Assembly (NCBI RefSeq): GCF_025685545.1
Contig: NZ_JAGSYC010000024.1
Coordinates: forward strand, 434,001-498,000
DNA length: 64,000 nt
Direction of reading: 5' to 3'
Source: Granulicella paludicola
GTDB taxonomy: Bacteria; Acidobacteriota; Terriglobia; Terriglobales; Acidobacteriaceae
Under the pieces are notes generated by a model. It saw only the letters and a program-made list of their open reading frames with translations, ran no database searches and was not told the origin of the DNA. Both the position numbers and the translations under genes were made by a program. This document shows positions 33,244 to 56,278 of the stretch, piece by piece; the first letter of the stretch is position 1; each line of letters begins with the position of its first letter.

Positions 33244-33282
33244 AGTGTGATGGTCCTCGGCACATCACATGTCTATAAATTG

Positions 33283-33894: not shown

Positions 33895-34179
33895 CGAAGA
33901 TCACCTTTCCTCAACTTGCGCGAGCTAAGAGCCAGAACTATCAAATGTGCGAGAAACGGAACCATTCACTTCCCGAGAAGTTCGTCCGTCAACTTTGGCA
34001 TATGGGCCATACAAATGCCAACTGGCATATCGAAGTGTCTCCCACTGTTTGCCGTAGGCACATCTCAGAATCGAATCGCAGCTATCCCCGGCCTCTAGGC
34101 GATTTCAATCTATACAATCCGATAATTGGCAACGGCTCCTGACCGGGCTACGATCATCTTGTGCGTGGGAGGAATCGTA

Positions 34180-34572: not shown

Positions 34573-34616
34573 AGAACTCTCGAGGTTGGACTGCGCGAAC
34601 AACGGAGGCGGGGATG

Positions 34617-39077: not shown

Positions 39078-40142
39078 ATGCGGCGTCCGCTTCTGGTGCT
39101 TGTGCTGTGCACATCGCTTTGCTGTTTGGGTTGGCCGGGAATGGCGACTGCCGCGCCCCAGGCTTCGGCAGGTGTGAGCCAGCCTGCTGCGACCGAAACC
39201 TCCTCAGCGTTTGCCGGCTCCGAGACTTGTGCTTTGTGCCATGCGGACATCGCCAAAAAATTCTCTTCGAATCCGCATTCTGAATTGGCGCTAATGCATG
39301 GCGGCAAAGGCGTCACCTGCGAGAGTTGCCACGGGCCTGGGCAAGCCCACGTTGCATCCGGTGGAGATCCAACCAAGATTCTGCAGCTAAGCAAGATGTC
39401 GGCAAACCAGATCGACAAGACTTGTCTCGGTTGCCATGCAGGTGCTCATCCGAACTTTCTACGTTCGGACCATGGCAAGGCCGGTGTTGGGTGTACTAGT
39501 TGCCATAGCATTCACGGCGTGGCCGCTGCGGCGATTCCGTCGGCTATCGTTCTATCTGCTGCCGCGCCTGACAAGAAGTCACGGTTGGCCAGCCGCTTGT
39601 TCAGCGTGATGAAGCCGGATGCAACCACTGGGGACCCGTTGCATTGGGCCGCAGCTTCAGCCGAAATGCCCGGGCAGAATCCAAACCTGCTCAAGGCCCC
39701 GCAGCCACAGCTCTGTTTCAGCTGCCACAGTGATATCAAGCCTGCTTTCAGTCAGCCGTTCCATCACAAAGTCAACGAGGGGCTGGTGAAGTGTTCCGAC
39801 TGTCACGATCCTCACGGGACATTTGGCAACAATCAACTGCGCTCGACTGCTGACCAGAACATGATCTGCACAAAGTGCCATACGGAGACGCGTGGACCCT
39901 TTGTCTTCGAACATGCAGCGGTGAAGTCTGAAGGCTGTGTCGGCTGCCATTCACCGCATGGTTCGCAGAACGCGCGATTGCTGAACGTTCCGAATATCAA
40001 CCAGCTTTGTAACCAGTGCCATAGCCCGGTTGCGATGGGCACTGTTCACGGGATGGGTGCCGGGTCAGCGGAAGTCCAGCAGTGCATCAGCTGCCACACA
40101 ATGATTCACGGCTCAAACGTCAATCCTGCATTCATCCGATGA
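39078..40142 (+). CDS. Decaheme c-type cytochrome, DmsE/MtrA family
   Basis: A 354-residue periplasmic electron carrier with ten CxxCH heme motifs: CALCH, CESCH, CLGCH, CTSCH, CFSCH, CSDCH, CTKCH, CVGCH, CNQCH and CISCH. A signal peptide (LLVLVLCTSLCCLGWPGMAT) precedes them. The pattern GSETCALCHADIAKKF at the start and GCVGCHSPHGS near the end is that of the DmsE/MtrA decahemes, which sit inside an outer-membrane barrel and carry electrons across it. The next gene encodes such a barrel and overlaps by four bases. GGAG lies seven bases before the ATG. No outer cytochrome gene of MtrC type follows in the window. Confidence 0.92.
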   Translation: MRRPLLVLVLCTSLCCLGWPGMATAAPQASAGVSQPAATETSSAFAGSETCALCHADIAKKFSSNPHSELALMHGGKGVTCESCHGPGQAHVASGGDPTKILQLSKMSANQIDKTCLGCHAGAHPNFLRSDHGKAGVGCTSCHSIHGVAAAAIPSAIVLSAAAPDKKSRLASRLFSVMKPDATTGDPLHWAAASAEMPGQNPNLLKAPQPQLCFSCHSDIKPAFSQPFHHKVNEGLVKCSDCHDPHGTFGNNQLRSTADQNMICTKCHTETRGPFVFEHAAVKSEGCVGCHSPHGSQNARLLNVPNINQLCNQCHSPVAMGTVHGMGAGSAEVQQCISCHTMIHGSNVNPAFIR

Positions 40143-42856
40143 CGGTCGAATCGTACGACCGGGTCGCTCCGAGGAACAGCTTGGTGCGCAGAATAGACAT
40201 TGCTTCATGGCAGACGAGGCTTGAGATGACGACGTTCAGCTGCATCACCCGGTGGCACAACAACCAGACTTTCCTCTCCGAAGCCAGCAGGATTGTGCGC
40301 GTCATTCTGATTGGAGCACTGCTGCTGACTGCAGGAAGGATCGTCGCGCAGGGGACTGCCATCACTGTAACTTCCGCTGTGCCTGATGCACCTGCATCGT
40401 CTGCTCTGCCAGAGGCACCCGTAGCCGAACCGCCAGCGACTTCAGGGCAGGAACAGATGAGCCGCTATGTAATTCGGCAGACGGCCGATATAGGTGGTCG
40501 TATCGTTGGAGTTTCCGGTAGCGGCGCGATGTATGACACTCTGGTCAATCTGCATTCGGGTCCTCGCGTCCTGGGCCAAACGTATACGATGCACGCGCTC
40601 CCAGACGCGAAACCTCTCCTCCTGGATTCTCTGTCGGCCTTTGGTAACGGCTTTGGTGGGGACCCCATCAATTTTGCGAGACTCTCTTTCTTTAAGGGTA
40701 AGCTTTACGAGTTCACAGGAACCTTCCGTCGCGACCGGCAGTACTTTGACTACGACCTTTTAGGCAATCCCAGTATCCCGCTGGGTATCTCTACCCCGTA
40801 CGGCATGGTTGCAGGCCAGCCGACAGCAGCGTCGCTGTCTCATCAACAGCTCACGCAATCGCCTGTGATGTTCAACACCGTGCGTAGGATGACAGACACT
40901 TCGCTGACTCTCCTGCCGCTCTCCAATATCTCTTTCCGCGCGGGCTACTCGCAGAACATCTTTCAGGGGCCCAGTTTGAGTCCTGGTTATTTGATAGGTG
41001 CCTCCGATCAGCTGCTTCGTGAGTATCAACGTAACAGCAGCGACGATTTCTTAGCCTCGATGACGTGGAAGCCGCTGGCCCTGACCAGCATCACGTTCGA
41101 AGAACAGATAGACCACTACAAGGCAGATTCCTATTTCACGCTTGCACCGGGCCAATTGAATGTTCAGGAGGCAGATGGTACGCCCGCCGCGACGGGCAAC
41201 TGGGATGCGACGGCTGCACCGTATTCCATCGCTTCATGCAACACTTCGAGCATGGGCAGCGCGTATACCAACGCTACCAATTACACAATTTTTTCTGCTC
41301 CCCAGACCGCTGGTGGCCGACCGATCGTCAATCCCGCCTGCAACGTCACTACAAATTACCTGCGCGCGCAACCAACCCGGGCTATTTATCCCACAGAGAT
41401 GCTGCGCTTTCAAAGTTCTAGAATGAGAGGTCTGGCTGTCAATGGCGACCTGCGATACACAAGGGCAAACAGCAGCCTCGCCAATTACTATGAGGCCTTC
41501 CAGGGGCTCGATGGAGCCATCCGGAATTACAGCCTGACCGGAAACGCGAAGGTGCAGCGGCGCGTAGTGAGCTCTGATCTGGGTGTTACGTGGCAGAGCT
41601 CGAAAACGATTTCAGTTTCGGACCAGCTCGATTTCTCCAACGTTCGTCAGCCCGGCAGCGCAAATATTACAACGGGAGTGACTCACAATGCTCCTACCAC
41701 TCCCGGCAACGAAACAATTAGCTATGTGGGCCCACTCGCGGCGGGAACGGCCTACAGCATCGAAGGCAATCCTGCTGGCGTGCCACTCTATGGTTACTTT
41801 GGCCAGAGGTTTCTAACCAACAATGCAACCGTAACCTGGGACGCATCGCCGAAGACATCGTTGACCTTCACGTATCGTTACAGGACGCACAGCATCGTGC
41901 AAACCGCAGGAACAGGCGCTTCCAGTGTCCTTGTCACGATTCATGAAAATGGGGGAATCTTCAATGTGGCACTTCATCCGACCACTCAATGGAGGATCAA
42001 TGGCACAGCGGAGATGCTCTACGACGATAACGCTCTGACGCCTATCGGCCCAAGGCAGACGAAACACTACAGAATTCATACACTCTACAAACTTAGGCCA
42101 TGGGCGACGTTATCGGGCGCACTCAACGATCTCGAACGCCATAACAATACCTTCAATACCGGCGTAACCCCGATCGACGGGCCGCTGCAGCATGTTGACC
42201 ATACTCGTAATGTCGGCGTCGGTGTAATCGTGGCACCGAACGAGCACTACGGGTTCGATGTGAACTACGACTACTCGGACATTTATATATCGACGAACGT
42301 CTGCTACCTGAACGGCGCTACCTCTACGCTTCCCGGAACTGCGTCAACGACCAGCAGCGGATCTCCCAATCTCTGTCCGGGTGTCTTTTCACGGGGATCG
42401 ACTACGGTGCTGTCAGACTGGGGACCAACCCGAGACTTCATGGATGCGCCTACGCAGTATGCCTCGGTGGGCTTCGATTTTTCACCGAACAAGAAAATTC
42501 GGACGTCCGCGGGATATCGTATCAGCGCGGTGAGCGGGAATCAGTTTTTTGCCAACGCGCAGCAGGTCAACGGTTCTCTGCAGTCGGCATATCAATCTCC
42601 TTATTTCAACGTGGCGTGGACGTTACACCCTGGCCTTATATGGAAGGCAAACTACGACTACTTTGGCTATGGCGAAGGTGGCCCTTCGGGAGCTCCTTTC
42701 TGCAGCAGCTCAACTTCTTTGACTTCAGTTGTCCTACCTTGCGGATCTTCAGTGCTGCTGGGGCCGACGGGATTGAAAGAGCCGTCCTCAGGCTTGACCG
42801 CGCCCAGAAATATGCACGCGAACGTATTGACACTGACGATCCACTACGAGTTCTAA
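40139..42856 (+). CDS. MtrB/PioB-like outer-membrane beta-barrel
   Basis: A large outer-membrane barrel (905 aa from the ATG at 40139, which overlaps the cytochrome stop as ATGA). An inner ATG at 40226 is another possible start and places the leader (RIVRVILIGALLLTAGRIVA) nearer to the N-terminus. The mature part begins with a proline/alanine-rich segment. It then shows many alternating strands with aromatic girdles (FARLSFFKGKLYEFTGTFRR, ARNYSL-type repeats) and ends in NVLTLTIHYEF with a terminal Phe, the usual BAM signal. It lacks the N-terminal CxxC of Shewanella MtrB. Family assignment comes from size, strand pattern and the coupled decaheme gene. It would hold the decaheme and form a trans-outer-membrane conduit. 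Confidence 0.72.
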   Translation: MTVESYDRVAPRNSLVRRIDIASWQTRLEMTTFSCITRWHNNQTFLSEASRIVRVILIGALLLTAGRIVAQGTAITVTSAVPDAPASSALPEAPVAEPPATSGQEQMSRYVIRQTADIGGRIVGVSGSGAMYDTLVNLHSGPRVLGQTYTMHALPDAKPLLLDSLSAFGNGFGGDPINFARLSFFKGKLYEFTGTFRRDRQYFDYDLLGNPSIPLGISTPYGMVAGQPTAASLSHQQLTQSPVMFNTVRRMTDTSLTLLPLSNISFRAGYSQNIFQGPSLSPGYLIGASDQLLREYQRNSSDDFLASMTWKPLALTSITFEEQIDHYKADSYFTLAPGQLNVQEADGTPAATGNWDATAAPYSIASCNTSSMGSAYTNATNYTIFSAPQTAGGRPIVNPACNVTTNYLRAQPTRAIYPTEMLRFQSSRMRGLAVNGDLRYTRANSSLANYYEAFQGLDGAIRNYSLTGNAKVQRRVVSSDLGVTWQSSKTISVSDQLDFSNVRQPGSANITTGVTHNAPTTPGNETISYVGPLAAGTAYSIEGNPAGVPLYGYFGQRFLTNNATVTWDASPKTSLTFTYRYRTHSIVQTAGTGASSVLVTIHENGGIFNVALHPTTQWRINGTAEMLYDDNALTPIGPRQTKHYRIHTLYKLRPWATLSGALNDLERHNNTFNTGVTPIDGPLQHVDHTRNVGVGVIVAPNEHYGFDVNYDYSDIYISTNVCYLNGATSTLPGTASTTSSGSPNLCPGVFSRGSTTVLSDWGPTRDFMDAPTQYASVGFDFSPNKKIRTSAGYRISAVSGNQFFANAQQVNGSLQSAYQSPYFNVAWTLHPGLIWKANYDYFGYGEGGPSGAPFCSSSTSLTSVVLPCGSSVLLGPTGLKEPSSGLTAPRNMHANVLTLTIHYEF

Positions 42857-42864
42857 CCTAGGCT

Positions 42865-43905
42865 TCAGCAGATTCTCGGAAGCTGCTCTCCAGACATCAT
42901 ATCGAGTACTCGATTGCCTCCGATGCGACTGCGTACCGTGACGATTCCAGACCGGTGCTCGTGGACAGCCCCAACGTTTACCGCCCCGTTCGATACACTT
43001 TGACCACGTAAAACGGTGATTGCCCGTTCGGCATCCGCTTCTGCGACGAAGATTGCAAAGCGGCCCTCGTTCGCAACATATAGCGGATCCAAACCCAGAA
43101 GTTCGCAGGCTCCGCGGACGATATCTGAAACAGGGATGAGAGCTTCCTCGACCGTGATTCGGAGGCCCGCTACGGTGGCGATCTCGTTCAAAGCAGAAGA
43201 TAGGCCACCTCGCGTTAGATCGCGCATGCAGTGAATCTCAATCCCGGCTTCCAGTAGAGCTTCTACAGATGGCCAGAGGGAAGCAGTGTCGCTGCTCACG
43301 GGACCCTCGAACTCCAGCCCTGCACGCACGGACAGGATCGCGATTCCGTGATCCCCGAGATTGCCACTGATTATGACCACATCGCCCGCACGGACAGACT
43401 CCGGACCGATTACGTTCGGAGCAATCACCCTGCCTATGCCCGTTGTGTTGATAAAGATTCCGTCGCCCTTTCCATTGTCCACGACTTTGGTATCGCCAGT
43501 CACGATAGGGACATGGGCAACCAAGGCTGCGTCTCGCATGGAGTTAACCACGCAAACAAGCGTCTCCATTGGAAGTCCTTCTTCCAGGACAAAGCCAGCA
43601 CTAAGGGCAATCGGCTGCGCACCACACATCGCGAGATCGTTGACCGTGCCGTTGACCGCTAGGTCTCCGATCGTCCCGCCCGGAAAGATGAGCGGATGGA
43701 CGACGTAAGTGTCAGTCGTCATGGCAAGGCGGCCACCTCCGACATTGAGTAGCGCTCCATCATGATGCGCATGTCGCGCGGTGCTCGCAAATGCGGGAAG
43801 GAAAATATCTTCGATCAACTGATTGGTAAGCCTGCCGCCTCCACCGTGGCCCAGCAGGATCCGTTCACTGGTTCTTTGAGGCAAGGGACACGAGAGAATG
43901 GACAT
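42865..43905 (-). CDS. hypE: Hydrogenase maturation factor HypE
   Basis: A 346-residue PurM-like ATPase that dehydrates its own C-terminal thiocarboxamide to thiocyanate, the source of the CN ligands of the [NiFe] site. The PurM fold starts at [19 protein letters not shown]. The catalytic C-terminal tail is PRIC, ending the protein, with the modified Cys last. The ATG at 43905 is chosen over the frame to 44019: AAGGA lies near it and the protein then starts as HypE does. It overlaps hypD by 41 bases and is last in the hydrogenase operon, ending eight bases from the convergent barrel gene. Confidence 0.95.
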
Positions 43906-44995
43906 CTTCTTTCCTTCTTCCAAAGTGAAAATAGGCAGCGCATGCACCTTCTGACGAAACCATAGGTGCTCCAAGGGGGCGGTCTGGCGTACAGCTTGAG
44001 GCGAACGCAGGACAGTCATAAGGTTTGCGCAGTCCCTGCAGCACGAGGCCAGCTATGCACTCCGTCGACTCTTTAGCGTCTGCCAGCTGAATGCCGAATT
44101 TAAATTCAGCATCCATGCTGCGGTATTGGTCCCGTAGTCGCAAACCACTGTCAGGAATCTCCCCGATGCCACGCCAGGCACGATGTGTTATTTCAAATAC
44201 CTCCGAGACACGCGCCTGGGCCTGAAGATTGCCAACTTTTTGAACAGCACGCGTGTACTGGTTCTCAACAATCGTAAGACCTTCCTCGAGCTGCGAGATC
44301 AGCATCAGTACTCCTTCGAGAAGATCGAGCGGCTCGAACCCCGTTACAACGATGGGTATTCGATATCTCTGAGCGATGTCGACATATTCTTCGTACCCCG
44401 TCACCATGCAGGCGTGGCCGGCCGCCAGGAACGCTTGCACCTGGCAGTCTGGTGACGCAAGGACCGCCTTCATTGCCGGCGGCACGAGCACATGCGACAC
44501 AAGCATGGAGAAATTCGCGAGGTTCTCTTTGGCAGCCTGCCAGACGGCCATGGCATTGGCTGGCGCTGTCGTCTCAAAGCCCACGGCGAAGAACACAGTC
44601 TCTCGAGTAGGATTGGCACGAGCTATTTGCAATGCATCCAGAGGGGAATACACAATACGCACGTCAGCGCCCAAGGATTTTGCGTCCAACAAACTTTGTG
44701 TGGAACCGGGTACGCGAAGCATGTCGCCGAAGGAACATAGAATGACTAGGGGCAATAGTGCCGTTGCGACAGCTCGATCGATCATTGCAATCGGTGTCAC
44801 ACAGACAGGACAGCCGGGTCCGTGGACTAGAGAGACGAGTGGCGGGAGGAGTTCTTGCAGGCCGCTCTTCACGATGGTGTATGTTTGGCCACCACACACC
44901 TCCATGATCGTCCAGGGCCGCGTAGTTTTGCGGCGGATCTCCAGAGCCATGCGCTGGACGGAGTCGTACTGCCTATATTCATCGAGGAATTTCAT
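43865..44995 (-). CDS. hypD: Hydrogenase maturation factor HypD
   Basis: A 376-residue iron-sulfur protein; with HypC it is the scaffold on which Fe(CN)2CO is built. [16 protein letters not shown] contains the essential Cys, [10 protein letters not shown] the second pair, [10 protein letters not shown] the central motif, and later cysteines ([31 protein letters not shown]) the [4Fe-4S] ligands. Full length. The ATG overlaps the hypC stop codon by four bases (ATGA). The CGGQ variant, instead of E. coli's CGGH, is common in the family. Confidence 0.95.
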
Positions 44996-45258
44996 TGAGT
45001 TTGTCCGACCTCTGCTTCTAGGTCCTCGAGCATGTCGAGATCTCGCAAAGCGTCGAAGACACGTTGAGCCTCTTCTTCATTCACTATGGACAACGCAAAC
45101 CCGACGTGGACCATCACGTACTCGCCGACGCGTGCATCTGGAGTGTAGTCAAGACAAATCTCCTTGCGAATACCTCCGAAATCGACCTTCCCTCGACGCA
45201 GTCCCAAGTGCTTGTCGACGACAATCGTGATGATTTTTCCAGGCACAGCTAAGCACAT
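44992..45258 (-). CDS. hypC: Hydrogenase maturation chaperone HypC
   Basis: An 88-residue chaperone. [13 protein letters not shown] with Cys2 is the invariant N-terminus that binds iron with HypD and carries the cofactor to the large-subunit precursor. [20 protein letters not shown] is the conserved OB-fold end. One HypC/HybG-type protein is encoded; no second copy is in the window. It starts ten bases after hypF ends and overlaps hypD. Confidence 0.95.
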
Positions 45259-45268
45259 GAGTTCCTCC

Positions 45269-47515
45269 TTAGTGGATCTTGCCCGCGAGAACAGCTTGGC
45301 CGAGCGCTAAACCGCCATCGTTTGTGGGGGCCTGCCGGTGAGAAAAGACTTCGAATCCACGATCCTCAAGCAGTCGCCGGGACCTACGCAAAAGATAAGC
45401 ATTCTGAAAGACGCCTCCACTGAGCACGACATTGCGAATCTTCGTAGTGCTTGCGACAGCAACAATCCAATTGGCAAGAGCATTGTGAAATTTTGCAGAG
45501 ATGACACCAGGATGTACACCTGAACCAGTGTCCTTCTGGATGTCTTTCACCAGTGACATCCACTCACCGATACCGCCTCCTTCGGCGATTACATAGGCAT
45601 CGTCCGTTTGTATCTGACCTATGGAGCTCTCAAGACGCATAGCGGCCAGCCCTTCGAAGAAGTTCTGTCGCCCAACCCCGGTTAGATAAGCCACCCCATC
45701 GAAGAGTCTGCCAACGCTTGAAGTCTGGGGAGCATTGATTTCATGTTCTAGCATCGCTGCGAACTCTGGCTTGATTTGCTTCCGAGCGTTCCCCGCGCCG
45801 TACGTCGTCCAGAGAAGCCCCGCAGCCGACCGTGAACAATCGTGCATGGCGGCCTCCCCTCCGGGCAATGCGAAAGGCTGAAGTGAGGCGATCCTCACCA
45901 GGCAGCCTTGATCTGCAATCAGAAACTCGCCCCCCCAGATCGTTCCATCAAGTCCCAGGCCTGCGCCATCCCATGCCACTCCAAGGTAGGGCTCGGTTAC
46001 ACCGTTCTCAGCAGCGCACGAAGTGACGTGAGCGTGATGATGCTGAACCTTCACTAGAGAAACACTATTGACTGCTGCATACGTTTGAGCCCAAAGGGTA
46101 GAAGCATAGTCCGGGTGCAGATCACTGACAATTACTTCAGGCTTAAAGCGATAGAGCTTGCACATATCCTCGATCGTCTTCTCAAAGGCGTCCCTCGTCT
46201 CCGGTGAATCAAGATCGCCTATATGTTGACTGAGCCAGACCTGGCGTCCGAATCCGATGGCTATAGTGTTTTTCAGGTGACCGCCGACAGCTAAGACGGG
46301 ACGCAACTCGTGCGACACCTGGATAGGCAGGGGGGCGTAACCGCGGGCTCGTCGAAGGATCTGTGGTCCGCTCACTAGCCGGACCACAGAGTCGTCGCAG
46401 GGGCGTGCAATCGGTCGATCGTGAAGAACGAAGACGTCAGCAATATTTTTCAGACGTTCGAGTGCTTCATCATTCTCGATAGCGATCGGTTCACCCGTGA
46501 GGTTTCCACTTGTGGCGACAAGAGGAAAGGGGTGGGCCGCCATCATAAGGTGGTGAAGGGGCGAACTCGGCAGCATCACACCGAGACTCGAAGAGAAAGG
46601 AGCGATTCCAGGCGCAAGCCCAGCTGCGGTTGTCGGCTGAAGAAGAACGATAGGGGCAGCTGAGGATCGAAGGACGCTCTCTTCTTCGTCGCTCGCCTCG
46701 CAGTAACGGCGAACACATTCCATTGTGGGCATCAGCAAAGCAAACGATTTATGCTCTCTCTGCTTGCGAGCGCGCAGACGGCTAACCGCTGACGGACTGA
46801 GCGCGTCCACCAACAACTGAAAACCTCCGATACCCTTAATTGCAACAATGCATCCTCGCTGGAGCGCGTTGGCGACCTCTGCGAGTATGTTGGCAGGTTT
46901 AGATCCGGGAGGGCACAACCAGAGCTGTGGTCCGCAATTGCCACAAGCATTTGGTTGCGCGTGAAATCGGCGGTCGTTTATCGAATCATATTCGCGCTGA
47001 CACGACTGACACATAGCAAAGTTCTGCATCGTGGTGTTTGGACGGTCATAGGGTATGTCTAGGGCAATTGTGTAGCGCGGACCGCATTGCGTGCAGTTCG
47101 TGAAGGGGTAAGCAAACCGGCGATTTTGTTGGTCGAAGATTTCGTTCAGACACGACGAGCAGGTTGCAAGATCTGGGAGGATCGCAGCGACTTTGGGCCT
47201 TCCTGAGGTTGTCTGCTCGGTACTCGGAAGAATCTCGAAGCCAACACTTCCGGTGGGCGCAACCCGGAACACCTCTTGCATCGTGATCATCACTGCTGTC
47301 GGCGCAGAAGTTTCCAGTTGGAGAAGAAATTCCGTGAGCCGTTCTCCGTCACCTTCGATTTCGATCTCCAGGCCGGCATTCGTATTTCTAACCCATCCCG
47401 TTAGCCGCATCTTTTCAGCAAGACGATAAACAGTCGGACGAAAACCTGCGCCTTGGACTGCGCCATGAAGAGCGATCCGAAGGCGCTCACTTTTCTGCGC
47501 CGGAGAGGTGATCAC
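45269..47515 (-). CDS. hypF: Carbamoyltransferase HypF
   Basis: A 748-residue enzyme that turns carbamoyl phosphate into carbamoyl-AMP and passes the group to HypE. Order of domains: acylphosphatase (residues 10-95, LHGAVQGAGFRPTVYRLAEK). Two zinc fingers follow (CSSC with CTQC near residues 117-145, CQSC with CGNC near 168-200). A YrdC-like domain (residues 205-390, CIVAIKGIGGFQLLVDA) and a Kae1-like domain (VQHHHAHVTSCAAENG; GGVFQNAYLLR near the end) complete the protein. Normal length. The GTG start directly follows the hypB stop, so the two are translationally linked. Confidence 0.95.
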   Translation of the reverse strand: MITSPAQKSERLRIALHGAVQGAGFRPTVYRLAEKMRLTGWVRNTNAGLEIEIEGDGERLTEFLLQLETSAPTAVMITMQEVFRVAPTGSVGFEILPSTEQTTSGRPKVAAILPDLATCSSCLNEIFDQQNRRFAYPFTNCTQCGPRYTIALDIPYDRPNTTMQNFAMCQSCQREYDSINDRRFHAQPNACGNCGPQLWLCPPGSKPANILAEVANALQRGCIVAIKGIGGFQLLVDALSPSAVSRLRARKQREHKSFALLMPTMECVRRYCEASDEEESVLRSSAAPIVLLQPTTAAGLAPGIAPFSSSLGVMLPSSPLHHLMMAAHPFPLVATSGNLTGEPIAIENDEALERLKNIADVFVLHDRPIARPCDDSVVRLVSGPQILRRARGYAPLPIQVSHELRPVLAVGGHLKNTIAIGFGRQVWLSQHIGDLDSPETRDAFEKTIEDMCKLYRFKPEVIVSDLHPDYASTLWAQTYAAVNSVSLVKVQHHHAHVTSCAAENGVTEPYLGVAWDGAGLGLDGTIWGGEFLIADQGCLVRIASLQPFALPGGEAAMHDCSRSAAGLLWTTYGAGNARKQIKPEFAAMLEHEINAPQTSSVGRLFDGVAYLTGVGRQNFFEGLAAMRLESSIGQIQTDDAYVIAEGGGIGEWMSLVKDIQKDTGSGVHPGVISAKFHNALANWIVAVASTTKIRNVVLSGGVFQNAYLLRRSRRLLEDRGFEVFSHRQAPTNDGGLALGQAVLAGKIH

Positions 47516-48214
47516 TTAGAGGCTCACGTTCAGCATGCGGCTGGATGACGCGTGGCTATCAACCGCATACTGAAGCCAATTGATCCAGGGGGGCATACCC
47601 TCGCCCGTTCTCGCGGATAAGGCCAGGATGGTGGCATTGGGACTGACCTCCGCGACATTGTTCATAAGCTCCTGCAGGTCAGCGCCGGATGGCTCGGCGA
47701 GGTCAACCTTATTAATAAGCACTAGATCTGCTTTATTGAACATTACTGGATATTTCTTCGGTTTCTCCGGACCTTCGGCCACACTACAGACTACGACGCG
47801 CAGGCTTTCACCCAAATCGAAGGAGCTTGGGCAGATAAGATTGCCGACATTCTCGATGACTAAGAGGTCAAGGTCACTGATCGGGAAAGACTCGAGCGCA
47901 CGAGAGATCATGCGGGCGTCAAGATGGCACACAGTCCCAGTTGTGATCTGAAAGGCCCGAACGCCTAAAGCTTCGATTCGTTGAGCGTCCAGATCGGTTT
48001 GTAAATCACCTTCAATAACGGCTACTCGAAGCTTCCCTTGCAGCGCACAGATCGTCGCTTCAAGCAATGTTGTTTTACCCGCACCGGGCGCCGACATCAA
48101 ATTCATCACGAGCAGACCCTCTTTGTGGAAGAGCTCACGATTTGCGAGGGCAGTCTGTTGATTAGCGTTCAGAACATTTGTTTTGACTGAGATCCGCTCG
48201 ATGACTGGCTCCAT
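47516..48214 (-). CDS. hypB: Hydrogenase nickel-insertion GTPase HypB
   Basis: A 232-residue SIMIBI GTPase that drives nickel delivery with HypA. The P-loop is MSAPGAGKTT, the metal site GTVCHLDARM (Cys and His shared across the dimer) and the G4 motif INKVD. The ATG at 48214 has GAGGGA about six bases upstream and starts with MEPVIERISVK, as HypB should. It lacks the N-terminal CxxCGC high-affinity nickel motif and the His-rich stretch of enteric and rhizobial HypB, so nickel storage is not expected. It follows hypA by 16 bases. Confidence 0.94.
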   Translation of the reverse strand: MEPVIERISVKTNVLNANQQTALANRELFHKEGLLVMNLMSAPGAGKTTLLEATICALQGKLRVAVIEGDLQTDLDAQRIEALGVRAFQITTGTVCHLDARMISRALESFPISDLDLLVIENVGNLICPSSFDLGESLRVVVCSVAEGPEKPKKYPVMFNKADLVLINKVDLAEPSGADLQELMNNVAEVSPNATILALSARTGEGMPPWINWLQYAVDSHASSSRMLNVSL

Positions 48215-48230
48215 GGTTGTCCCTCTTTCT

Positions 48231-48572
48231 TTAGTCCACTTCGATGTAGTCGATCTGTAACTCTTCGCCTGAAACAATCTGTAGAGGAAAGCCACACTGC
48301 CCGCAGATCAGGCAGATACCACGGACAGGCTCGCTAGACTCTTCACAGACAACGCAACGGACAATCATTGGCACTATCTCAATCTCGAGCTGAGCCTCGC
48401 TGCATGACGTTCCCTGTTGTGCAATCTCAAACGCGAACTGGAGTGCTTCTGCAACAATCGTCGTGAATGTCCCAAGGCGAAGTTTGACCACTCGAACGGA
48501 TCGCGCATTCTGACTACGCGCCTTCTCTTCAGCGATTTGTACGATGCTCTCAGCAATGGCGATCTCATGCAC
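48231..48572 (-). CDS. hypA: Hydrogenase nickel metallochaperone HypA
   Basis: A 113-residue HypA/HybF-type chaperone. MHEIAIAESIV provides the His2 nickel site, and the zinc ribbon has CVVC with CLICGQC around residues 73-93. The protein ends normally (LQIDYIEVD). It inserts nickel into the large-subunit precursor with HypB. The gene lies 14 bases past the maturation protease gene. Confidence 0.95.
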   Translation of the reverse strand: MHEIAIAESIVQIAEEKARSQNARSVRVVKLRLGTFTTIVAEALQFAFEIAQQGTSCSEAQLEIEIVPMIVRCVVCEESSEPVRGICLICGQCGFPLQIVSGEELQIDYIEVD

Positions 48573-48586
48573 CTTGGATCATCTCT

Positions 48587-49135
48587 TTACATTGCGGTCG
48601 CACGTTCAAGACAGCCCATGCGAAACCACCACAAGTCTGGCTCGGTTGGAGAATCCCGCGGAGGACAAGGAATCCCATGTCCCGCCAGCGAAGTCGCAAT
48701 CATCTCAGCGGCGCGAGAAGCGGTATCTTGAATCAAGAAACTCACCTGTTCACCAAACTCACACGTAATCGGGTTTACTCCGACGATGATCAATTCTTCG
48801 GGTGCATGACCTGCCAGTCGAAGGTGCGCTAGAGAGTCCCAAAGCCCTGGATCGTGGCCCGTGATGCGAAGCTTCGCCTTGAGGGAGAGGAAGTCTTCCT
48901 CGTGAAAGATGGAGAGGGTTCCGGGCGAAGCATCAGAATGTACAGCATCGACCACGATGACGATTTTCTTATCGTAGAGGTAGGGCGCAAGGTCGAGACC
49001 AGGCGTTCCAAGGTCGAGAACCTCAACGCTCGCTGGGTATTCATACTCGCAACGAAACGTCTCAATGGCGAGAGGTCCGAAGCCATCATCGCCAAGAAAA
49101 ACATTGCCTAGGCCAATCACGCAGAGAGGACTCAT
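48587..49135 (-). CDS. hybD: Hydrogenase maturation endopeptidase (HyaD/HybD family)
   Basis: A 182-residue M52 protease that trims the C-terminal tail of the large subunit once nickel is in place. VIGLGNVFLGDDGFGPLAIE has the first metal ligand; the usual position carries aspartate where E. coli HybD has Glu16. VVDAVHSDASPGT has the second (Asp), and ITGHDPGLWDSLAHL supplies the third (His). The C-terminus is longer than in HybD by about 20 residues (GHGIPCPPRDSP). The ATG at 49135 overlaps the large-subunit stop as ATGA, so it is preferred to 49201. Its substrate is surely the adjacent large subunit. Confidence 0.9.
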   Translation of the reverse strand: MSPLCVIGLGNVFLGDDGFGPLAIETFRCEYEYPASVEVLDLGTPGLDLAPYLYDKKIVIVVDAVHSDASPGTLSIFHEEDFLSLKAKLRITGHDPGLWDSLAHLRLAGHAPEELIIVGVNPITCEFGEQVSFLIQDTASRAAEMIATSLAGHGIPCPPRDSPTEPDLWWFRMGCLERATAM

Positions 49136-50829
49136 TGAACTTTCACCTCGGCGATTTCCTTTCCGCTGGTGTCCAGGGTGTGACAGGAGCAGGCCATACA
49201 CGGATCAAAGGAATGAACAGTACGAAGCACTTCGAGGGGCTTTTCCGCATCGACTACGGGGCTTCCGATGAGAGATGTCTCATAGGGACCGGGCACGCCC
49301 TTCTCGTCCCGCGGACTCGCGTTCCAGGTAGTTGGTACGACAGCTTGATAGTTCGTAAAAACACCTTTGTCGATGACAACCCAGTGCGAGAGTGCGCCCC
49401 GCGGTGCTTCGTGCATACCCATTCCCATGATCTCGCCAGAAGGGAAGTTAGGGGCGTTATAAGTGGTGTCGTCGCCGTCAAGGATGTTTGTGGTCAAGAG
49501 CTCCAGATGTTTCAACGCCAAGTCTGAGAGCATCGCGGACCGGATCGAACGTGCAAGATAACGACCCATCGTCGACTGCAGATCGTTCGGCGTCACTTTC
49601 AATCCGTTGACTGCGGCGATGCGTTGGAAGGCGGTGTCGGTCCACCTACGTGTGAGTGCATGACCTGAGGCATATCCAACCAATACGTTTGCAAGCGGGC
49701 CCGCCTGCATGGGGCTACCGTTGTAGCGCGGCGCCTTAACCCAGGTGTATTTCGCTTCTTCTTTGAAATCAGTGTAGTCAGGAGTCTGCTCACCCTTATA
49801 CGGTTGCAGTGGACCACCACCCTGATACCAGGCATGGGTGGAGTCTTCGGTCACAGCCTTGCGAAACTCTGCGTCCTGCCAGTTGACGATCGGTCTCACA
49901 CGGCTTAGATCGCCGCCCATGATCACGCCGCCTGGCAGATCAAACTTGGTTGCCTTGGCATCGAGCGGCAGATCGGGCACGGCAAGATAATTCGCCACTC
50001 CACGCCCGAGGTGCAGATACTCCGGGTAGTAGGCTGCGAGAAGGCATGTGTCGGCTAGAAAGACCTGTTGGACGAAGGGAATCAGGTCCTCGAGAATGGA
50101 CTTCAACATGCCCAGCCGATCCATATTCATAGTGGCAAGGCTGTTCAAGTTGATTGCGTTCATAACGCCACCAACAGCAAGATTTTGAATGTGCGGTGTT
50201 TTCCCTCCAAGGATTGCGACCACTTGGCAGGACTTGCGCTGAAAGTCCAGAGCCTGTAGATAATGTGAAAACAGAATTAGATTTACTTCAGGGCTCAATT
50301 TCATCGCTGGGTGTCCCCAATAGCCATGCGAGAAAATACCTAACTGCCCACTTGCGATCAATCCCTTAACCTTTGATTGCACAGCTGCAAGTTCCTGTCG
50401 CGAATTGCCCGTCCATGAACTTGAACCTTCTGCTATCGAGGCCGCTTTGGCAGGGTCAGCCTTGGGTATCTGAAGGATGTCGACAAAGTCGAGTGCAGAT
50501 AGATGGTAGAAGTGGACAATATGATCATGCAGCGCATGGCCTATCAGGATCAGGTTGCGAATATATTGAGCGTTCGTTGGAATTTCGAGTGAAAGAGCAT
50601 CCTCCACCGCCCGCACCGAGGCGACCGCATGAACCGTCGTACAGACACCACAAAATCGCTGTGCAAAGACCCAGCCTTCCCTTGCATCACGTCCTCGCAA
50701 GATAGTTTCGAGGCCGCGCCACATGGTGCAGCTTGCCCATGCTTTATTTACTATGCCGCCTTCCACCTCGACATCGACGCGCAGATGTCCTTCGATGCGG
50801 GTAACGGGGTCGATCGTAATACGGGCCAT
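49132..50829 (-). CDS. hybC: [NiFe] hydrogenase large subunit
   Basis: A 565-residue catalytic subunit of a group 1 membrane-bound uptake hydrogenase. The N-terminal nickel motif (L1) is RFCGVCTTVHAVASV (C60, C63 with H67). The C-terminal motif (L2) is SFDPCMACSCHTLD, providing C544 and C547 and ending with H550. Cleavage after H550 would remove a 15-residue tail. C549 next to the last histidine is a small oddity: this position is usually valine or similar. The ATG at 50829 overlaps the membrane-subunit stop as TGATG, with GAGGAG upstream. A TTG three bases earlier is an alternative start. Confidence 0.95.
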   Translation of the reverse strand: MARITIDPVTRIEGHLRVDVEVEGGIVNKAWASCTMWRGLETILRGRDAREGWVFAQRFCGVCTTVHAVASVRAVEDALSLEIPTNAQYIRNLILIGHALHDHIVHFYHLSALDFVDILQIPKADPAKAASIAEGSSSWTGNSRQELAAVQSKVKGLIASGQLGIFSHGYWGHPAMKLSPEVNLILFSHYLQALDFQRKSCQVVAILGGKTPHIQNLAVGGVMNAINLNSLATMNMDRLGMLKSILEDLIPFVQQVFLADTCLLAAYYPEYLHLGRGVANYLAVPDLPLDAKATKFDLPGGVIMGGDLSRVRPIVNWQDAEFRKAVTEDSTHAWYQGGGPLQPYKGEQTPDYTDFKEEAKYTWVKAPRYNGSPMQAGPLANVLVGYASGHALTRRWTDTAFQRIAAVNGLKVTPNDLQSTMGRYLARSIRSAMLSDLALKHLELLTTNILDGDDTTYNAPNFPSGEIMGMGMHEAPRGALSHWVVIDKGVFTNYQAVVPTTWNASPRDEKGVPGPYETSLIGSPVVDAEKPLEVLRTVHSFDPCMACSCHTLDTSGKEIAEVKVQ

Positions 50830-52172
50830 CAAGCTCCTCTTTCTAACGGTTTGCTCAGGGATGTTGTCGGAGCTGCAGTGGCGGTGTGCCAGCCGAAGGG
50901 TCGGAAGCTGTGGTCCCAGGTGCTGGACTCCCCAGGCAGCACCGCGAAGTAGTTGATCGCGAAGACAAAGGCCACAATCCCTAGCGAGATGTATCCGCCT
51001 GCCATGAGCAACTCAGGAACGGAAGGGAAGTAACTGGTACTGCGCATAGGTGCATAGGCGATGGACGTGGGAATAAAGCGATACAGCATCCCCCCGAGGC
51101 AAGCGAGAGCTGACATATTCAGCAGAACTCGCGGTGTCCGGCGAGCTCGCCTGAAACGGAATACAACTGCAGGCACCAGGATGAGTGAAGTCTCGAGCAG
51201 AAAGAGAATGCTCATCTTGTTGAAGGCAAAAGCCGCATGAAGCTGGCCTCGCAAGGTGAGGTCAACCGCACGCACCAACAAAAAGAAAAAGCACATCCCA
51301 GATAGGAGATTCGCGAGCTCTGACAGCACATCCCCGTCCAACTTGCGCGAGTACCGCAGGCAAACAATGAGCAGCAAGAAGAGGGTGAAAGCAAAGCCGC
51401 AAAGAGCAGCGGCTATCAGGTACAGCCACGGCATGGCGGGTGACTGCCAGAGTGGGTCGATCTTATCCCCAGCTAGGAGCAAAAGACCTCCAAGCGAAGA
51501 CTGATGCATAAGAGGGATGACATACGCTCCAATAATCACAAAGGGATAAGCCTTGCGTATGCGCGGCGAAATGTGGCGCAGGAACGCCCGGGCCTTTTCG
51601 TTTCCCGTGTAATAGAGCCGTTCGAGGAAAAGCGGCAAAATCTCGAACGAGAGAAAGAGAGCACAATAGAGCGGCATGCAGATGGATATTTCGAGCATGG
51701 CCGACTCGCTGTTCCACCGCCAGGGCATCAGCGCACTATAGAAGTTCCAGGGGCGGCCTACATCGAAACCCAGAGCGATGAGACCCGTTGCATAGAAGAG
51801 GAAGCCAGAAACGAGCGCCGTGCGCATGACGACATGCAGTTTCTGTCGGTTGAAAACCCACGCTGCCATTCCGAGTGCCAGAGGCCCAGAGCCAAGCGCG
51901 GTGAGCGTCATCACATTAAATGTCTTCCAAATCCCCCAGGCATAGACAGAGTTCATCGCGGAGAAAGGTCCAAGCGGTGACACCAGCCGCATACCGGCAA
52001 GCACTAGACCGAGCGAAGCCAGCATCATCAAGAGCACCAGAAGAGGTGTCAGCACTGGTCCAACTGTGACAGGTACACCGGATTGCCAGTGGTTGATGAG
52101 CGTGGCTCCTCGCTCATCCGAACTTGCGGGAGTCGTAGTCTCGACTGGGTTTGGAATCGAAGGGAAGCTCAT
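50829..52172 (-). CDS. hybB: HybB-like NrfD-family membrane subunit
   Basis: A 447-residue integral membrane protein with about ten spans (for example LLVLLMMLASLGLVLAGMRL, AYVIPLMHQSSLGGLLLLAG, SILFLLETSLILVPAVVFRF). NrfD/HybB proteins bind quinone in the membrane and take electrons from an iron-sulfur partner without heme. The order of genes small-HybA-HybB-large is that of E. coli hyb. The ATG at 52172 overlaps the HybA stop (ATGA); the longer frame from 52292 is rejected. No diheme cytochrome b (HyaC/HupC) gene is present, so quinone reduction would go through this subunit. Confidence 0.92.
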   Translation of the reverse strand: MSFPSIPNPVETTTPASSDERGATLINHWQSGVPVTVGPVLTPLLVLLMMLASLGLVLAGMRLVSPLGPFSAMNSVYAWGIWKTFNVMTLTALGSGPLALGMAAWVFNRQKLHVVMRTALVSGFLFYATGLIALGFDVGRPWNFYSALMPWRWNSESAMLEISICMPLYCALFLSFEILPLFLERLYYTGNEKARAFLRHISPRIRKAYPFVIIGAYVIPLMHQSSLGGLLLLAGDKIDPLWQSPAMPWLYLIAAALCGFAFTLFLLLIVCLRYSRKLDGDVLSELANLLSGMCFFFLLVRAVDLTLRGQLHAAFAFNKMSILFLLETSLILVPAVVFRFRRARRTPRVLLNMSALACLGGMLYRFIPTSIAYAPMRSTSYFPSVPELLMAGGYISLGIVAFVFAINYFAVLPGESSTWDHSFRPFGWHTATAAPTTSLSKPLERGA

Positions 52173-53125
52173 AGCTGATCCGGAAATCCTGTCTTCTTCT
52201 CGTGATCCAGGCGTTCCAACTCGTGCCGCCGCCAATTGCGTCGGATCGCAAAGCCAAGGACCCCAGCCATCAGGATCGGCCCTCCGAGCCACTTGTAGAT
52301 GACTGACGTTACCTTGGTTGCGTAATGTCCTAAGGACGCATTGCCAAGTTTCGGCAAGCCTATCTTCTGGAACGACACACTTGAGAGATAAAGCACCTGG
52401 GTGCCACCGGCCTCGTGCTCACCGTAAACACGATTTTCGTAATATTTGTCAGGCGTTGCAGCTATGCGGTCCTTCGCCTGAACCAGCAGGACGTCGCGCT
52501 TGCCGAAGATGACTGCGCCGGTTGGACAAGCAGCGGTGCAGGCTGGTTGCAGATCTTCCTTAAGGCGCTGGTCATAGCAGAACTCGCATTTCACGATCTT
52601 CGGGTTTAACGCTTTCCACTCGAATTGAGGTACTTCGAACGGACACGCAACCTCACAGTAGCGGCAACCGATGCAGAGAGAGCTGTTCCAGGTGACTGCG
52701 CCGAAGTCAACCTTCTTGAGCGAACCAAAAGGGCAGCCCGTCACACAGGCCGGATCAAGGCAATGCATGCATTGCTTCTTGACGAACGCAAATTCATCCG
52801 ACTTCGGATCCTGGTAGAGCTCGATGATGTTCTTAGTCTGCGCATTGAGACCTGTCGGCATGTCCCAGATTCCGCCAGAGAGCTGCGTATCCGCTGGCAA
52901 ATTGTTTGCTTCATTACATGCCGGCATACAGGCCTTGCAGCCGGTACAGATTGTACTGTCATAGAGCATGGCGACGGCATCCGGGGAGGCAACAGGAAAT
53001 TCAGGATGCTCTTCAACGGAAGCCTCTGCAGACATCGGCAAGACCGCACTTGCGACACTTCCGCCAATCCCGAGCATGGCCTTGAATGCTTGGCGTCGCG
53101 TAATGGGAACTGTGAGAATATTCAC
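52169..53125 (-). CDS. hybA: HybA-like periplasmic four-cluster ferredoxin subunit
   Basis: A 318-residue iron-sulfur protein that links the small subunit to HybB. A Tat signal (ITRRQAFKAMLGIGG) leads it outwards. Four clusters are indicated: CTGCKACMPAC, CMHCLDPACVTGC, CIGCRYCEVAC and CEFCYDQ with CTAACP. A hydrophobic C-terminal anchor (GGPILMAGVLGFAI) with basic residues after it holds it to the membrane, as in HybA. The GTG start overlaps the small-subunit stop (GTGA). It ends in ATGA with hybB. Full length for the family. Confidence 0.93.
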   Translation of the reverse strand: MNILTVPITRRQAFKAMLGIGGSVASAVLPMSAEASVEEHPEFPVASPDAVAMLYDSTICTGCKACMPACNEANNLPADTQLSGGIWDMPTGLNAQTKNIIELYQDPKSDEFAFVKKQCMHCLDPACVTGCPFGSLKKVDFGAVTWNSSLCIGCRYCEVACPFEVPQFEWKALNPKIVKCEFCYDQRLKEDLQPACTAACPTGAVIFGKRDVLLVQAKDRIAATPDKYYENRVYGEHEAGGTQVLYLSSVSFQKIGLPKLGNASLGHYATKVTSVIYKWLGGPILMAGVLGFAIRRNWRRHELERLDHEKKTGFPDQL

Positions 53126-54306
53126 GCGCCCAGGTCCTTGTCGGTATGTCGTCCCGGCGCGTTGTCATCGTCTTGTCTCTTCGAAAACTGCCGTGAGGCA
53201 ACGTACCCGCCTGTGACGAGGGCACCGACGCCAAGGCCAACCAGGCCAGTTGCGAGCGGGCTTACCGTTCCTCGAGTTGTCGTGATCGGAGCGAAGCTAG
53301 TCGGCGGAGCCGCAATGGTGTGAAGTTGCACCACCTGAAACATCGGAACCTTGAACGCAATCGCCTTCTCCGTGCATCCGATGCAGGGAGCCCCAATCCC
53401 AATCGGCCAAACATCCGGGATCTCATTGAAGTGGCGAGTTGAGCAGCCTGCGTGTGTGTCGGGTCCCTTGCAGCCCATCTCATAAAGACACCAGCCTTCG
53501 CGATGCCCATCGTCTCCATAGACCTTCACAAAATTGCCGGCGTCGAAGTGAGCTCGGCGAGGACAGTGCTCGTGTATGTCGCGATCGAATGCGAACTTCG
53601 GTCGTCGCTGCTCGTCCGTCTCAGGGAACGTCCCATCTGCAGCGTATTGCAGGATCACGCCCAGCATGGTGTAAGGATTTGGCGGGCATCCGGGAATATT
53701 GATGATTGAGTGATCCGGCAATAGATCGGCAACCCCGACCGCGCCGGTAGGATCCGGATCTGCGGAAGGTATACCACCCCAGGATGCACAGGAGCCGATT
53801 GCGATGATGGCTGCGGCTTTGGACCCGACATCGGCAAGCACCTCCATCGCAGTACGTCCGCCGGTCTTCATGTATGTTCCATGAGCGCCCGTCGGAATCG
53901 AACCTTCGACCACAACGATGTATTTGCCCGCGTACTTTTGCATGGCCTCGTCGAGTGCTTGCTTAGCCTGCAGACCTGAGCCCGCCATCAGTGTTTCGTG
54001 GTATTCGAGTGAGATGACGTTGAGGATCAAATCGGCGAAGCCCGGATGTGACGTCTGCAATAGAGACTCCGTGCAGCCCGTGCAGTCTTGGAAATGTAGC
54101 CAGATGACGGGTGGTCGAACAACCTTCCCTAATACTGCAGCGACAGCCTCGGGGCTCGCTTTGTCGGTTAGCGCCAGGCCGTAGGGCGCGGCGACCATCA
54201 GACTCGTACAAAAGACAAGAAACGACCTGCGGCTGATACGGCACTGCTTCAGACGTTCATCTATCGTCTCAAGCTTTGCCGCAGATTGCACCAGAGCACC
54301 GAGCAT
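53122..54306 (-). CDS. hybO: [NiFe] hydrogenase small subunit
   Basis: A 394-residue iron-sulfur subunit passing electrons from the active site to HybA. The Tat motif is ISRRSFLVFC (residues 25-34). Proximal-cluster cysteines are in FQDCTGCTESLLQ, GSCASWGG and IPGCPPNPYTML. Medial and distal cluster ligands lie in HEHCPRRAHFD, GWCLYEMGCKGP, AGCSTRHFN and GAPCIGCTEKAI. There is no extra pair of cysteines at the proximal cluster of the kind seen in O2-tolerant HyaA. A C-terminal anchor (LVGLGVGALVTGGYVA) follows. The ATG is near an AAGG. This is the first gene of the operon. Confidence 0.94.
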   Translation of the reverse strand: MLGALVQSAAKLETIDERLKQCRISRRSFLVFCTSLMVAAPYGLALTDKASPEAVAAVLGKVVRPPVIWLHFQDCTGCTESLLQTSHPGFADLILNVISLEYHETLMAGSGLQAKQALDEAMQKYAGKYIVVVEGSIPTGAHGTYMKTGGRTAMEVLADVGSKAAAIIAIGSCASWGGIPSADPDPTGAVGVADLLPDHSIINIPGCPPNPYTMLGVILQYAADGTFPETDEQRRPKFAFDRDIHEHCPRRAHFDAGNFVKVYGDDGHREGWCLYEMGCKGPDTHAGCSTRHFNEIPDVWPIGIGAPCIGCTEKAIAFKVPMFQVVQLHTIAAPPTSFAPITTTRGTVSPLATGLVGLGVGALVTGGYVASRQFSKRQDDDNAPGRHTDKDLGA

Positions 54307-54847: not shown

Positions 54848-56278
54848 ATGCCGAGTGCAGGATCGTTCCGCGAGAGCTGGCTCCGTCCCTTCTTCTTCTA
54901 CGGAAACAACTGGCTGAGCCTGATCGGTGGGGGTATTACAACCGCCTCCGCAATGGTGCTGGTCGGCTTCTGGGTGGTGGCTGTCTTTGGCCATGGCGGA
55001 TCATCGAATCCATACCTGGGAATACTCTTCGATCTTCTCCTCCCAGGAGTATTCATTCTGGGCCTGATCCTGATTCTTGTTGGGATTCTTCTAAGGCGGA
55101 GTTTCCTTCTTTCTACAGATCAGGTTCCTTCATTTTTCCCCGAAGTCAGCATTCATGATCCTGTCTTCAGGCACGGACTCGACATCGCCGTAGCCGCGAC
55201 CTTTATCAACTTCATCATCGTCGGTATCTGTTGCTATCGTGGCGTCGCCTACATGGACACGGTGTCGTTCTGCGGGAACACCTGCCACGTCATGGCACCA
55301 GAAAATGCCGCGTACCACGTCTCATCGCATGCAGGTGTCGCCTGCACTGAGTGTCATGTTGCGCCAGGAACCGCTGGCTATATTCACGCCAAGGTCAACG
55401 GCACCAAGCAGCTTTTCATGGTCCTGGTGGATCACTACCCCAGGCCGATCATGGCGAACCACAAAGTGCCTGTGGCGAGCTCAACATGTCTCAACTGCCA
55501 CAATGCGAATGCAGAGTTGGGAGACAAACTTGTTGTGACCCAGTCTTTTGCCGATGACGCGGTAAATACTCAGACCTCCAGCGTGACCGTCCTCCACGTT
55601 GGTGGAAAAGATGCGCTGGGTCATCTCAGCGGCATCCACGGCGCCCATCTGGGCAAGATCGAATACGTCTCCACGGATAATGAAGATCAGAATATCCCGT
55701 GGGTCCGCAAGACCAATTCTGACGGGTCCACGACGGAATTTGTCGTTGCTGGCGCACCAACACCTAACACCGCGAGCCCGCGGCTCATGGATTGCATTGG
55801 CTGTCACAATCGCGCGGCCCACTCCTTCGATACAGCTGAAGGCGCTCTCAACAAGATGATGGCGCAGGGAAGTCCAAGCTCATCTTTGCCATTCCTTCAC
55901 AAAGAAGGGCTACTCCTCTTGAATGGAAAATATGTATCCCAAAGCGAAGCGAAGGCGCGTATCGCCTCCAGCCTCGTCACTTTCTATCGCTCACAGTATC
56001 CGTCCGTTTGGAATCAGCAGCGACCGGCCGTTCAAACTTCGGCCGATACTCTCGTCAAGATCTATATGAGCAATGTGTTCCCCGCGATGAATGTTCGCTG
56101 GGGTACGCATCCCAATAACATTGGTCACACCGATTCGCTCGGCTGTTTTCGTTGTCATGACGGAAACCACACGAGTACGGCTGGGAAGACGATCACGAAC
56201 GACTGCTCCATTTGCCACAACCTGGTGGTATCAAACGAAGCGCACCCCAAAGTGCTGACCGATCTCGGTATGAATTAG
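54848..56278 (+). CDS. Membrane-anchored multiheme cytochrome, NapC/NirT-like
   Basis: A 476-residue cytochrome with three N-terminal membrane helices (WLSLIGGGITTASAMVLVGF, LLPGVFILGLILILVGILL, AVAATFINFIIVGICC), followed by a periplasmic heme domain. Five normal hemes are CTECH, CLNCH, CIGCH, CFRCH and CSICH. The first is an unusual C142-GNT-C146-H147, a CX3CH spacing, in FCGNTCHVM. The conserved context (SPHA-like HAGVACTECHVAPG) resembles quinol-oxidising NapC/NrfH proteins. It could take electrons from the quinone pool to the small cytochrome and onward. The start is the ATG at 54848, ten bases after the small cytochrome gene. It overlaps the convergent dehydrogenase gene by four bases. 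Confidence 0.85.
   Translation: MPSAGSFRESWLRPFFFYGNNWLSLIGGGITTASAMVLVGFWVVAVFGHGGSSNPYLGILFDLLLPGVFILGLILILVGILLRRSFLLSTDQVPSFFPEVSIHDPVFRHGLDIAVAATFINFIIVGICCYRGVAYMDTVSFCGNTCHVMAPENAAYHVSSHAGVACTECHVAPGTAGYIHAKVNGTKQLFMVLVDHYPRPIMANHKVPVASSTCLNCHNANAELGDKLVVTQSFADDAVNTQTSSVTVLHVGGKDALGHLSGIHGAHLGKIEYVSTDNEDQNIPWVRKTNSDGSTTEFVVAGAPTPNTASPRLMDCIGCHNRAAHSFDTAEGALNKMMAQGSPSSSLPFLHKEGLLLLNGKYVSQSEAKARIASSLVTFYRSQYPSVWNQQRPAVQTSADTLVKIYMSNVFPAMNVRWGTHPNNIGHTDSLGCFRCHDGNHTSTAGKTITNDCSICHNLVVSNEAHPKVLTDLGMN

Follow-up and report, generated by a model that had tools for sequence, protein, structure and literature searches.

A putative MtrAB-type outer-membrane electron conduit without a detectable surface cytochrome, linked to ImcH-like and NiFe hydrogenase genes, in Granulicella paludicola

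Two conduit genes in the analysed stretch

The DNA analysed here (the window) is a stretch of 64,000 nucleotides from Granulicella paludicola, a member of the Acidobacteriaceae (NCBI RefSeq assembly GCF_025685545.1, contig NZ_JAGSYC010000024.1, positions 434,001 to 498,000 of the forward strand). An original prediction, made from the sequence alone, had described at positions 39078-42856 a decaheme cytochrome gene and an outer-membrane barrel gene, regarded them as an electron conduit lacking an outer-surface cytochrome, and left it undecided whether the two parts act by themselves or depend on a partner encoded at another site. Both genes proved to be real: the decaheme at 39078-40142, with 10 CXXCH motifs, and the barrel, whose open reading frame (ORF) ends at 42856. 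As described below, the pair is probably an outward conduit that is fed from the inner membrane by a cytochrome and a hydrogenase encoded in the same window. The genes on which the argument turns are listed here.

39078..40142, + strand: MtrA/DmsE-type periplasmic decaheme cytochrome c (TIGR03508, MtrA profile match, motif count)
40226..42856, + strand: MtrB-fold outer-membrane beta-barrel, ending in Phe (AlphaFold2 model, 6r2q_B match, start analysis)
54848..56278, + strand: ImcH-like inner-membrane multihaem quinol dehydrogenase (PF03264, helices and motifs, linkage)

The decaheme ORF encodes 354 amino acids, with the first haem motif at residue 51 and a leader judged by eye to be of the Sec type. 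Its product scored 247.7 bits against TIGR03508 (DmsE family; cut-off 192.2), and a profile of 17 decahemes matched the solved chain 6r2q_A almost end to end (E 9.7e-57). This chain is MtrA of the Mtr complex, the molecule name in the PDB row being wrong. The 10 CXXCH motifs are kept in all 75 aligned decahemes (that of the window and 74 others). The models for the Geobacter GSU2203/GSU2204 pair stayed under their cut-offs (NF041028, 189.8 of 325 bits; NF041027, 12.8 of 350 bits). The whole window contains 29 CXXCH motif sites against 4.9 expected, a number that was reached in none of 100 shuffles. The stretch between haems 4 and 5 (window 39490-39730) is 74 residues long in the decahemes of the window and of Granulicella rosea, 23-29 residues in 72 of the 75 aligned decahemes and 46 residues in one other.

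An MtrB fold outside the MtrB sequence family

No Pfam or NCBIfam model matched the barrel over its cut-off, and a search of its profile against the PDB by sequence returned two unrelated weak matches (E 1), which were discarded. The AlphaFold2 model built from a 63-sequence alignment was confident (pLDDT 85.7, pTM 0.74) and shows about 26 long strands by our own count. When this model was compared with the PDB by Foldseek, the top chain was 6r2q_B of the entry "Structure of the Mtr complex" (E 1.9e-12, TM 0.56/0.70); VIA-align superposed 578 residues on this chain of 649 residues with Z 25.9 and rmsd 3.7, and the runner-up chain reached Z 16.5. Chain B of this entry is Shewanella MtrB. The original prediction had named as refuting a structure model in which the barrel cannot hold the decaheme; of this, the barrel side was examined, and the model of the barrel by itself matches MtrB. 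Plain TonB-type receptors, also considered for the identity of the barrel, were rejected, since such chains gave Z values of at most 16.5.

Two distant relatives of the barrel scored only 13.9 and 14.7 bits against PF11854 (MtrB_PioB; cut-off 23). Judged from its modelled fold, the barrel is a protein that works like MtrB, yet it lies outside the PF11854 sequence family. Since PF11854 misses the barrels of the Acidobacteriaceae, surveys relying on it may undercount acidobacterial porin-cytochrome pairs. CXXC is absent not only from the N-terminus of the barrel, as had been noticed before, but from its entire sequence. Unlike Shewanella MtrB with its CXXC, the window barrel has conserved cysteine pairs: in 78 aligned barrels three pairs are conserved (four of the six columns in 78/78, two in 76/78), and two pairs hold in all 24 of a more diverse set.

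The neighbourhoods of the conduit were surveyed at 80 named loci, the best 80 of 178 confirmed, a sample that leans to close relatives; the counts given are from a stop-to-stop frame recount. The closest named barrels among these loci are those of Granulicella rosea (76% identity in the best segment) and Bryocella elongata (72%). A decaheme gene lies directly upstream of the barrel gene in 76 of the 80 loci, and in the other four the barrel begins at the end of a contig. These data bear on whether any electrons cross the outer membrane at all, as the barrel might be a transporter of the usual kind, and the decaheme might carry or store redox equivalents in the periplasm. The failure of the barrel with MtrB sequence models would fit such an arrangement; however, no other fold matches the barrel nearly as well as MtrB, and the two genes are neighbours at each of the 76 loci with both sides in view, which makes it very improbable.

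The decaheme and barrel genes had been said to overlap by four bases. The barrel frame is open from 40082 and has in-frame ATGs at 40139 and 40226. The first of these shares bases with the stop codon of the decaheme gene but lacks a ribosome-binding site, and of the 74 conduits examined only the window itself offers a start with that spacing. The ATG at 40226, 83 bases past the decaheme stop, has GAGG upstream and is in register with the starts of the relatives. The barrel therefore likely starts at 40226, and translational coupling through a 4-base overlap is unsupported.

Search for an outer-surface partner

The absence of an MtrC/OmcA gene from the window, which the original prediction had pointed out, extends to the genome: the best score against TIGR03507 (OmcA/MtrC) was 18.9 bits, compared with a cut-off of 209.3, so that an MtrC encoded elsewhere in the genome was rejected at the sensitivity of this model. 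Of 150 related genomes searched, 7 carry OmcA/MtrC over the cut-off, all of them outside the family of the window, in families f6, f8 and f11 of the class. In the stretches examined from relatives, the MtrC genes adjoin genes for MtrA-like proteins, a divergent barrel accompanying some of them. A dedicated surface cytochrome was found beside the conduit in none of the 80 named acidobacterial neighbourhoods.

It had also been remarked that no DmsAB-like oxidoreductase is visible, and this holds genome-wide. The genome has three molybdopterin (PF00384) genes, which encode a formate dehydrogenase alpha subunit (over its cut-off), a NuoG-like subunit (452.8 of 470.05 bits) and an enzyme of the DMSO family (under all cut-offs shown); an export leader is evident by eye on none of the three. 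A DmsE-type outer-membrane reductase system was therefore rejected, as an exported molybdoenzyme was not found in the genome.

A third, surface-exposed redox partner might nevertheless be encoded away from the conduit or might not be a cytochrome of a recognised family. The search for secreted multihaem proteins, which the original prediction had called for, yielded no OmcA/MtrC and did reveal four other multihaem genes with export leaders by eye: two for 5-haem TPR proteins (at about C17:17.6k-17.9k and C17:845k-846k), one for a 7-haem TPR protein and one for a 7-haem protein (C17:414k and C26:148k-149k). This inventory comes from family searches and from scans for spaced CXXCH pairs (spacings of 18-79 bases, one codon variant), the genome listing of CXXCH covering 100 of 448 sites. 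Near the conduits of some relatives there are extra multihaem genes as well. Among unassigned frames with at least three CXXCH in the 80 loci, only L125 (4-haem) and L170 (7-haem, inside a Hyb-type cluster) have one, and 37 further stretches of relatives contain genes with 3 to 11 motifs, 8-, 9- and 11-haem genes among them. On the other side, none of the multihaem proteins of the genome matches OmcA/MtrC over the cut-off, their genes are all distant from the conduit, and the recurrent extra genes of the relatives mostly encode predicted membrane helices, with a CbcL-type architecture in some. A hidden surface partner is therefore regarded as improbable, and of the two possibilities first raised, a partner elsewhere or a two-part conduit acting alone, the evidence favours the latter.

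Some further observations were made on these cytochromes. The two 5-haem TPR-tailed cytochromes on C17 are paralogues. A four-CXXCH stretch at window 1974-2354 resembles the C-terminal part of the 421-residue, 7-haem cytochrome at C26:148k and, by this resemblance, is probably a truncated paralogue of it. The 7-haem protein encoded at L170:13757-14758, between HybO and HybA and adjoining a conduit, has a C-terminal helix and a weak match to an MtrC/MtrF domain (PF22113, 35.2 bits).

An ImcH-like cytochrome gene linked to the conduit

The product of 54848-56278 scored 28.5 bits against PF03264 (NapC/NirT; cut-off 24.1) and has three hydrophobic helices followed by one CX3CH and five CXXCH motifs (6 haems). 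The published traits of ImcH are three N-terminal helices, one CX3CH and 5-9 CX2CH motifs (PMC6295460), and all of them are found in this product, which thus shares the helices and the motif set of Geobacter ImcH. Five CXXCH and one CX3CH are present in 53 of the 58 ImcH-like frames of relatives; the other five have fewer, at least some of them being cut or split. The missing-partner framing of the original prediction consequently needs amendment, as a candidate partner on the inner side, accompanied by a hydrogenase, lies in the window.

In relatives the ImcH-like gene usually lies 0.35-1.2 kb downstream of the barrel gene. It is on the same strand as the conduit in 58 of the 80 loci, and within 1.3 kb in 45 of the 69 loci that have at least 2.5 kb of sequence downstream of the barrel. 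ImcH is also present in 39 of 50 barrel genomes (Fisher p 7e-10; shared ancestry uncorrected), a test that used 50 of 65 barrel genomes, weak partial matches having been dropped, and 64 of 67 ImcH genomes. A published survey states that neither mtrAB nor mtoAB genes were found beside imcH (PMC6295460), whereas such adjacency is common in the loci examined here. No description of a conduit-ImcH-hydrogenase linkage was found in the openly accessible literature, subscription papers lying mostly outside the search. The linkage to ImcH may have been overlooked earlier because the usual model for MtrB does not recognise the barrel.

Hydrogenase genes near the conduit

Between the barrel gene and the ImcH-like gene, the window has a complete set of Hyb-type NiFe hydrogenase genes with hyp genes, as follows.

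42865..44019, - strand: HypE (TIGR02124, 417.6 bits, cut-off 251.6)
43865..44995, - strand: HypD (TIGR00075, 472.2 bits, cut-off 192.8)
44992..45258, - strand: HypC (TIGR00074, 78.6 bits, cut-off 48)
45269..47515, - strand: HypF (TIGR00143, 721.8 bits, cut-off 466.1)
47516..48295, - strand: HypB (TIGR00073, 278.5 bits, cut-off 121.2)
48231..48572, - strand: HypA (TIGR00100, 88.1 bits, at cut-off)
48587..49201, - strand: hydrogenase maturation protease, HybD-like (TIGR00072, 111.4 bits, cut-off 47.45)
49132..50832, - strand: NiFe hydrogenase large subunit, HybC-like (PF00374, 677 bits; NF007778, 773.5 bits, under cut-off 969)
50829..52292, - strand: NrfD/HybB-like membrane subunit (PF03916, 53.6 bits; NF008133, 279.2 bits, under cut-off 450)
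52169..53125, - strand: HybA iron-sulfur subunit (NF008134, 319.2 bits, cut-off 263)
53122..54306, - strand: NiFe hydrogenase small subunit, HybO-like (TIGR00391, 386.8 bits, cut-off 179.5)

The enzyme exceeds the NiFe superfamily and HybA cut-offs and stays under the Hydrogenase-2 equivalog cut-offs, that for the large subunit as listed and NF007779 with 392.9 of 659 bits. Also close to the conduit, at window 31636-36359, are a multicopper oxidase gene and genes resembling response regulators and histidine kinases (the regulators named by eye).

Hydrogenase or hyp genes occur near 13 of the 80 conduits, in at least four gene orders. The hyp/hyb block is placed between the barrel and the ImcH-like gene in the window and in Bryocella; in L120, L122, L127, L163, L167 and L168 there are hydrogenase genes upstream, on the strand of the conduit; in L104 they are also upstream, with the small subunit encoded on the opposite strand; in L170 they are downstream on the conduit strand, and in L107 divergent, with the ImcH-like gene first. 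Bryocella elongata has two conduits, each with a different hydrogenase, whose large subunits are 92% and 47% identical to that of the window. Six of the 31 listed hydrogenase matches fall within 12.5 kb of a barrel, where a rough model of uniform placement, uncorrected for shared ancestry, would predict 0.19. CbcL-like genes stand at 12 of the 80 conduits; like Geobacter CbcL, these CbcL-type neighbours combine a multihaem part with a cytochrome b. The same-strand order in L120, L122, L127 and L167 is hydrogenase, decaheme, barrel, a 13-haem CbcL-like gene and an 11-haem gene, the ImcH-like gene coming next in L120, L122 and L127 and the contig ending at that point in L167.

Comparison with known conduits and direction of electron flow

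A conduit without an outer cytochrome is less of an oddity than it had seemed, since PioAB of Rhodopseudomonas palustris TIE-1, which like the window has a periplasmic decaheme and a barrel and no extracellular cytochrome, is already published as a natural example (PMC6831781). PioA of TIE-1 has a cleaved extension of about 200 residues that the window decaheme lacks, and PioAB works with PioC in light-driven uptake, whereas the window conduit has ImcH-like and hydrogenase neighbours. MtoAB of Sideroxydans and Gallionella likewise consists of a decaheme and a barrel without MtrC (PMC8805035, PMC4245776); it is published as oxidising Fe(II) together with CymA or MtoC, whereas the window has an ImcH-like protein. 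Shewanella MtrCAB is similar in its decaheme by profile and in its barrel by modelled fold, and differs in that the window genome has no MtrC/OmcA over the cut-off and a barrel under the PF11854 cut-off. With Shewanella DmsEFAB the window shares a decaheme of the DmsE family by TIGR03508, but not a secreted molybdopterin reductase, which was not found in the genome. The acidobacterial MtrCAB ("Group 5", PMC8805035) has a decaheme related to that of the window and one or two decaheme MtrC genes, whereas the matches from the window's family include none over the cut-off; the L191 barrel, which adjoins MtrC, shows weak homology (31 bits) to the window barrel. Acidobacterial decahemes, homologues of PioA/MtoA or ImcH, and MtrCAB have been published before (PMC3669403, PMC10654088, PMC6295460, PMC8805035).

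The PioAB and MtoAB precedents raise the question of whether the window conduit also runs inward, so that electrons of Fe(II) or some other reduced substrate outside the cell would reach the quinone pool or a periplasmic oxidase route. The known two-part conduits without a surface cytochrome serve electron uptake, and MtrCAB has been driven in reverse in the laboratory (PMC6831781, PMC8805035). However, the commonest neighbour of the conduit, ImcH, belongs to a family implicated to date only in quinol oxidation (PMC6295460), a linked hydrogenase provides electron donors rather than acceptors, and the extension of PioA is missing. Inward flow is thus considered unlikely; the linkage to ImcH and hydrogenase points instead to outward flow, unlike that of PioAB and MtoAB.

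Proposed outward conduit

We therefore favour, as the probable reading, an MtrAB-type outward conduit through the outer membrane without a dedicated surface cytochrome, fed by the ImcH-like cytochrome and the hydrogenase. It starts from the two proteins with the fold and the sequence relatives found for them, the gene linkage and the lack of a detectable MtrC- or DmsA-like partner. H2, by way of the adjacent Hyb-type hydrogenase in this lineage, or organic donors would reduce the quinone pool; the ImcH-like cytochrome would oxidise quinol and reduce the decaheme directly or via a soluble carrier. The MtrA-like decaheme would form a complex with the MtrB-fold barrel by plugging it, and electrons could then pass between the periplasm and the cell surface. 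They would leave from the outermost haem or haems of the decaheme, and their acceptors are probably small oxidants such as humics and Fe(III) in soluble or chelated form. Such acceptors are likelier than minerals because Shewanella depends on its surface cytochromes to reduce Fe(III) and electrodes (PMC6831781). MtrAB alone can conduct electrons across a membrane without MtrC (PMC4245776), and Acidobacterium capsulatum and Acidicapsa are reported to reduce iron (PMC8790237).

Several points weigh against this proposal. PF11854 finds nothing in the whole genome, and the structure model of the decaheme is poor (pLDDT 58), for which reason it was excluded from the fold search. The ImcH-like gene of the window lies 12 kb from the barrel gene, and its label as ImcH-like comes from published traits and PF03264. 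The four multihaem proteins with export leaders could in principle reach the surface. The published two-part conduits PioAB and MtoAB have been associated with electron uptake (PMC6831781, PMC8805035), and deletion of the surface cytochromes of Shewanella abolished the reduction of Fe(III) and electrodes (PMC6831781).

At the level of the family, we tentatively suggest, at somewhat less than even confidence, that the standard outward conduit of the Acidobacteriaceae is a two-part pair of an MtrA-like decaheme and an MtrB-fold barrel without a surface cytochrome, gated by an ImcH-like (and sometimes a CbcL-like) quinol oxidase and repeatedly coupled to NiFe hydrogenase, so that it might support H2-fed respiration with electrons released from the decaheme itself. 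Peat and tundra soils are rich in Acidobacteria, and decaheme genes have served there as markers for iron reduction (PMC3669403). The idea that MtrC makes an otherwise oxidising MtrAB core reductive has been both raised and questioned (PMC8805035). Acidobacteriaceae that combine a conduit lacking MtrC with an ImcH-like gate and a hydrogenase would offer a natural test case for this idea; if our proposal is true, MtrC is not what renders such a conduit reductive.

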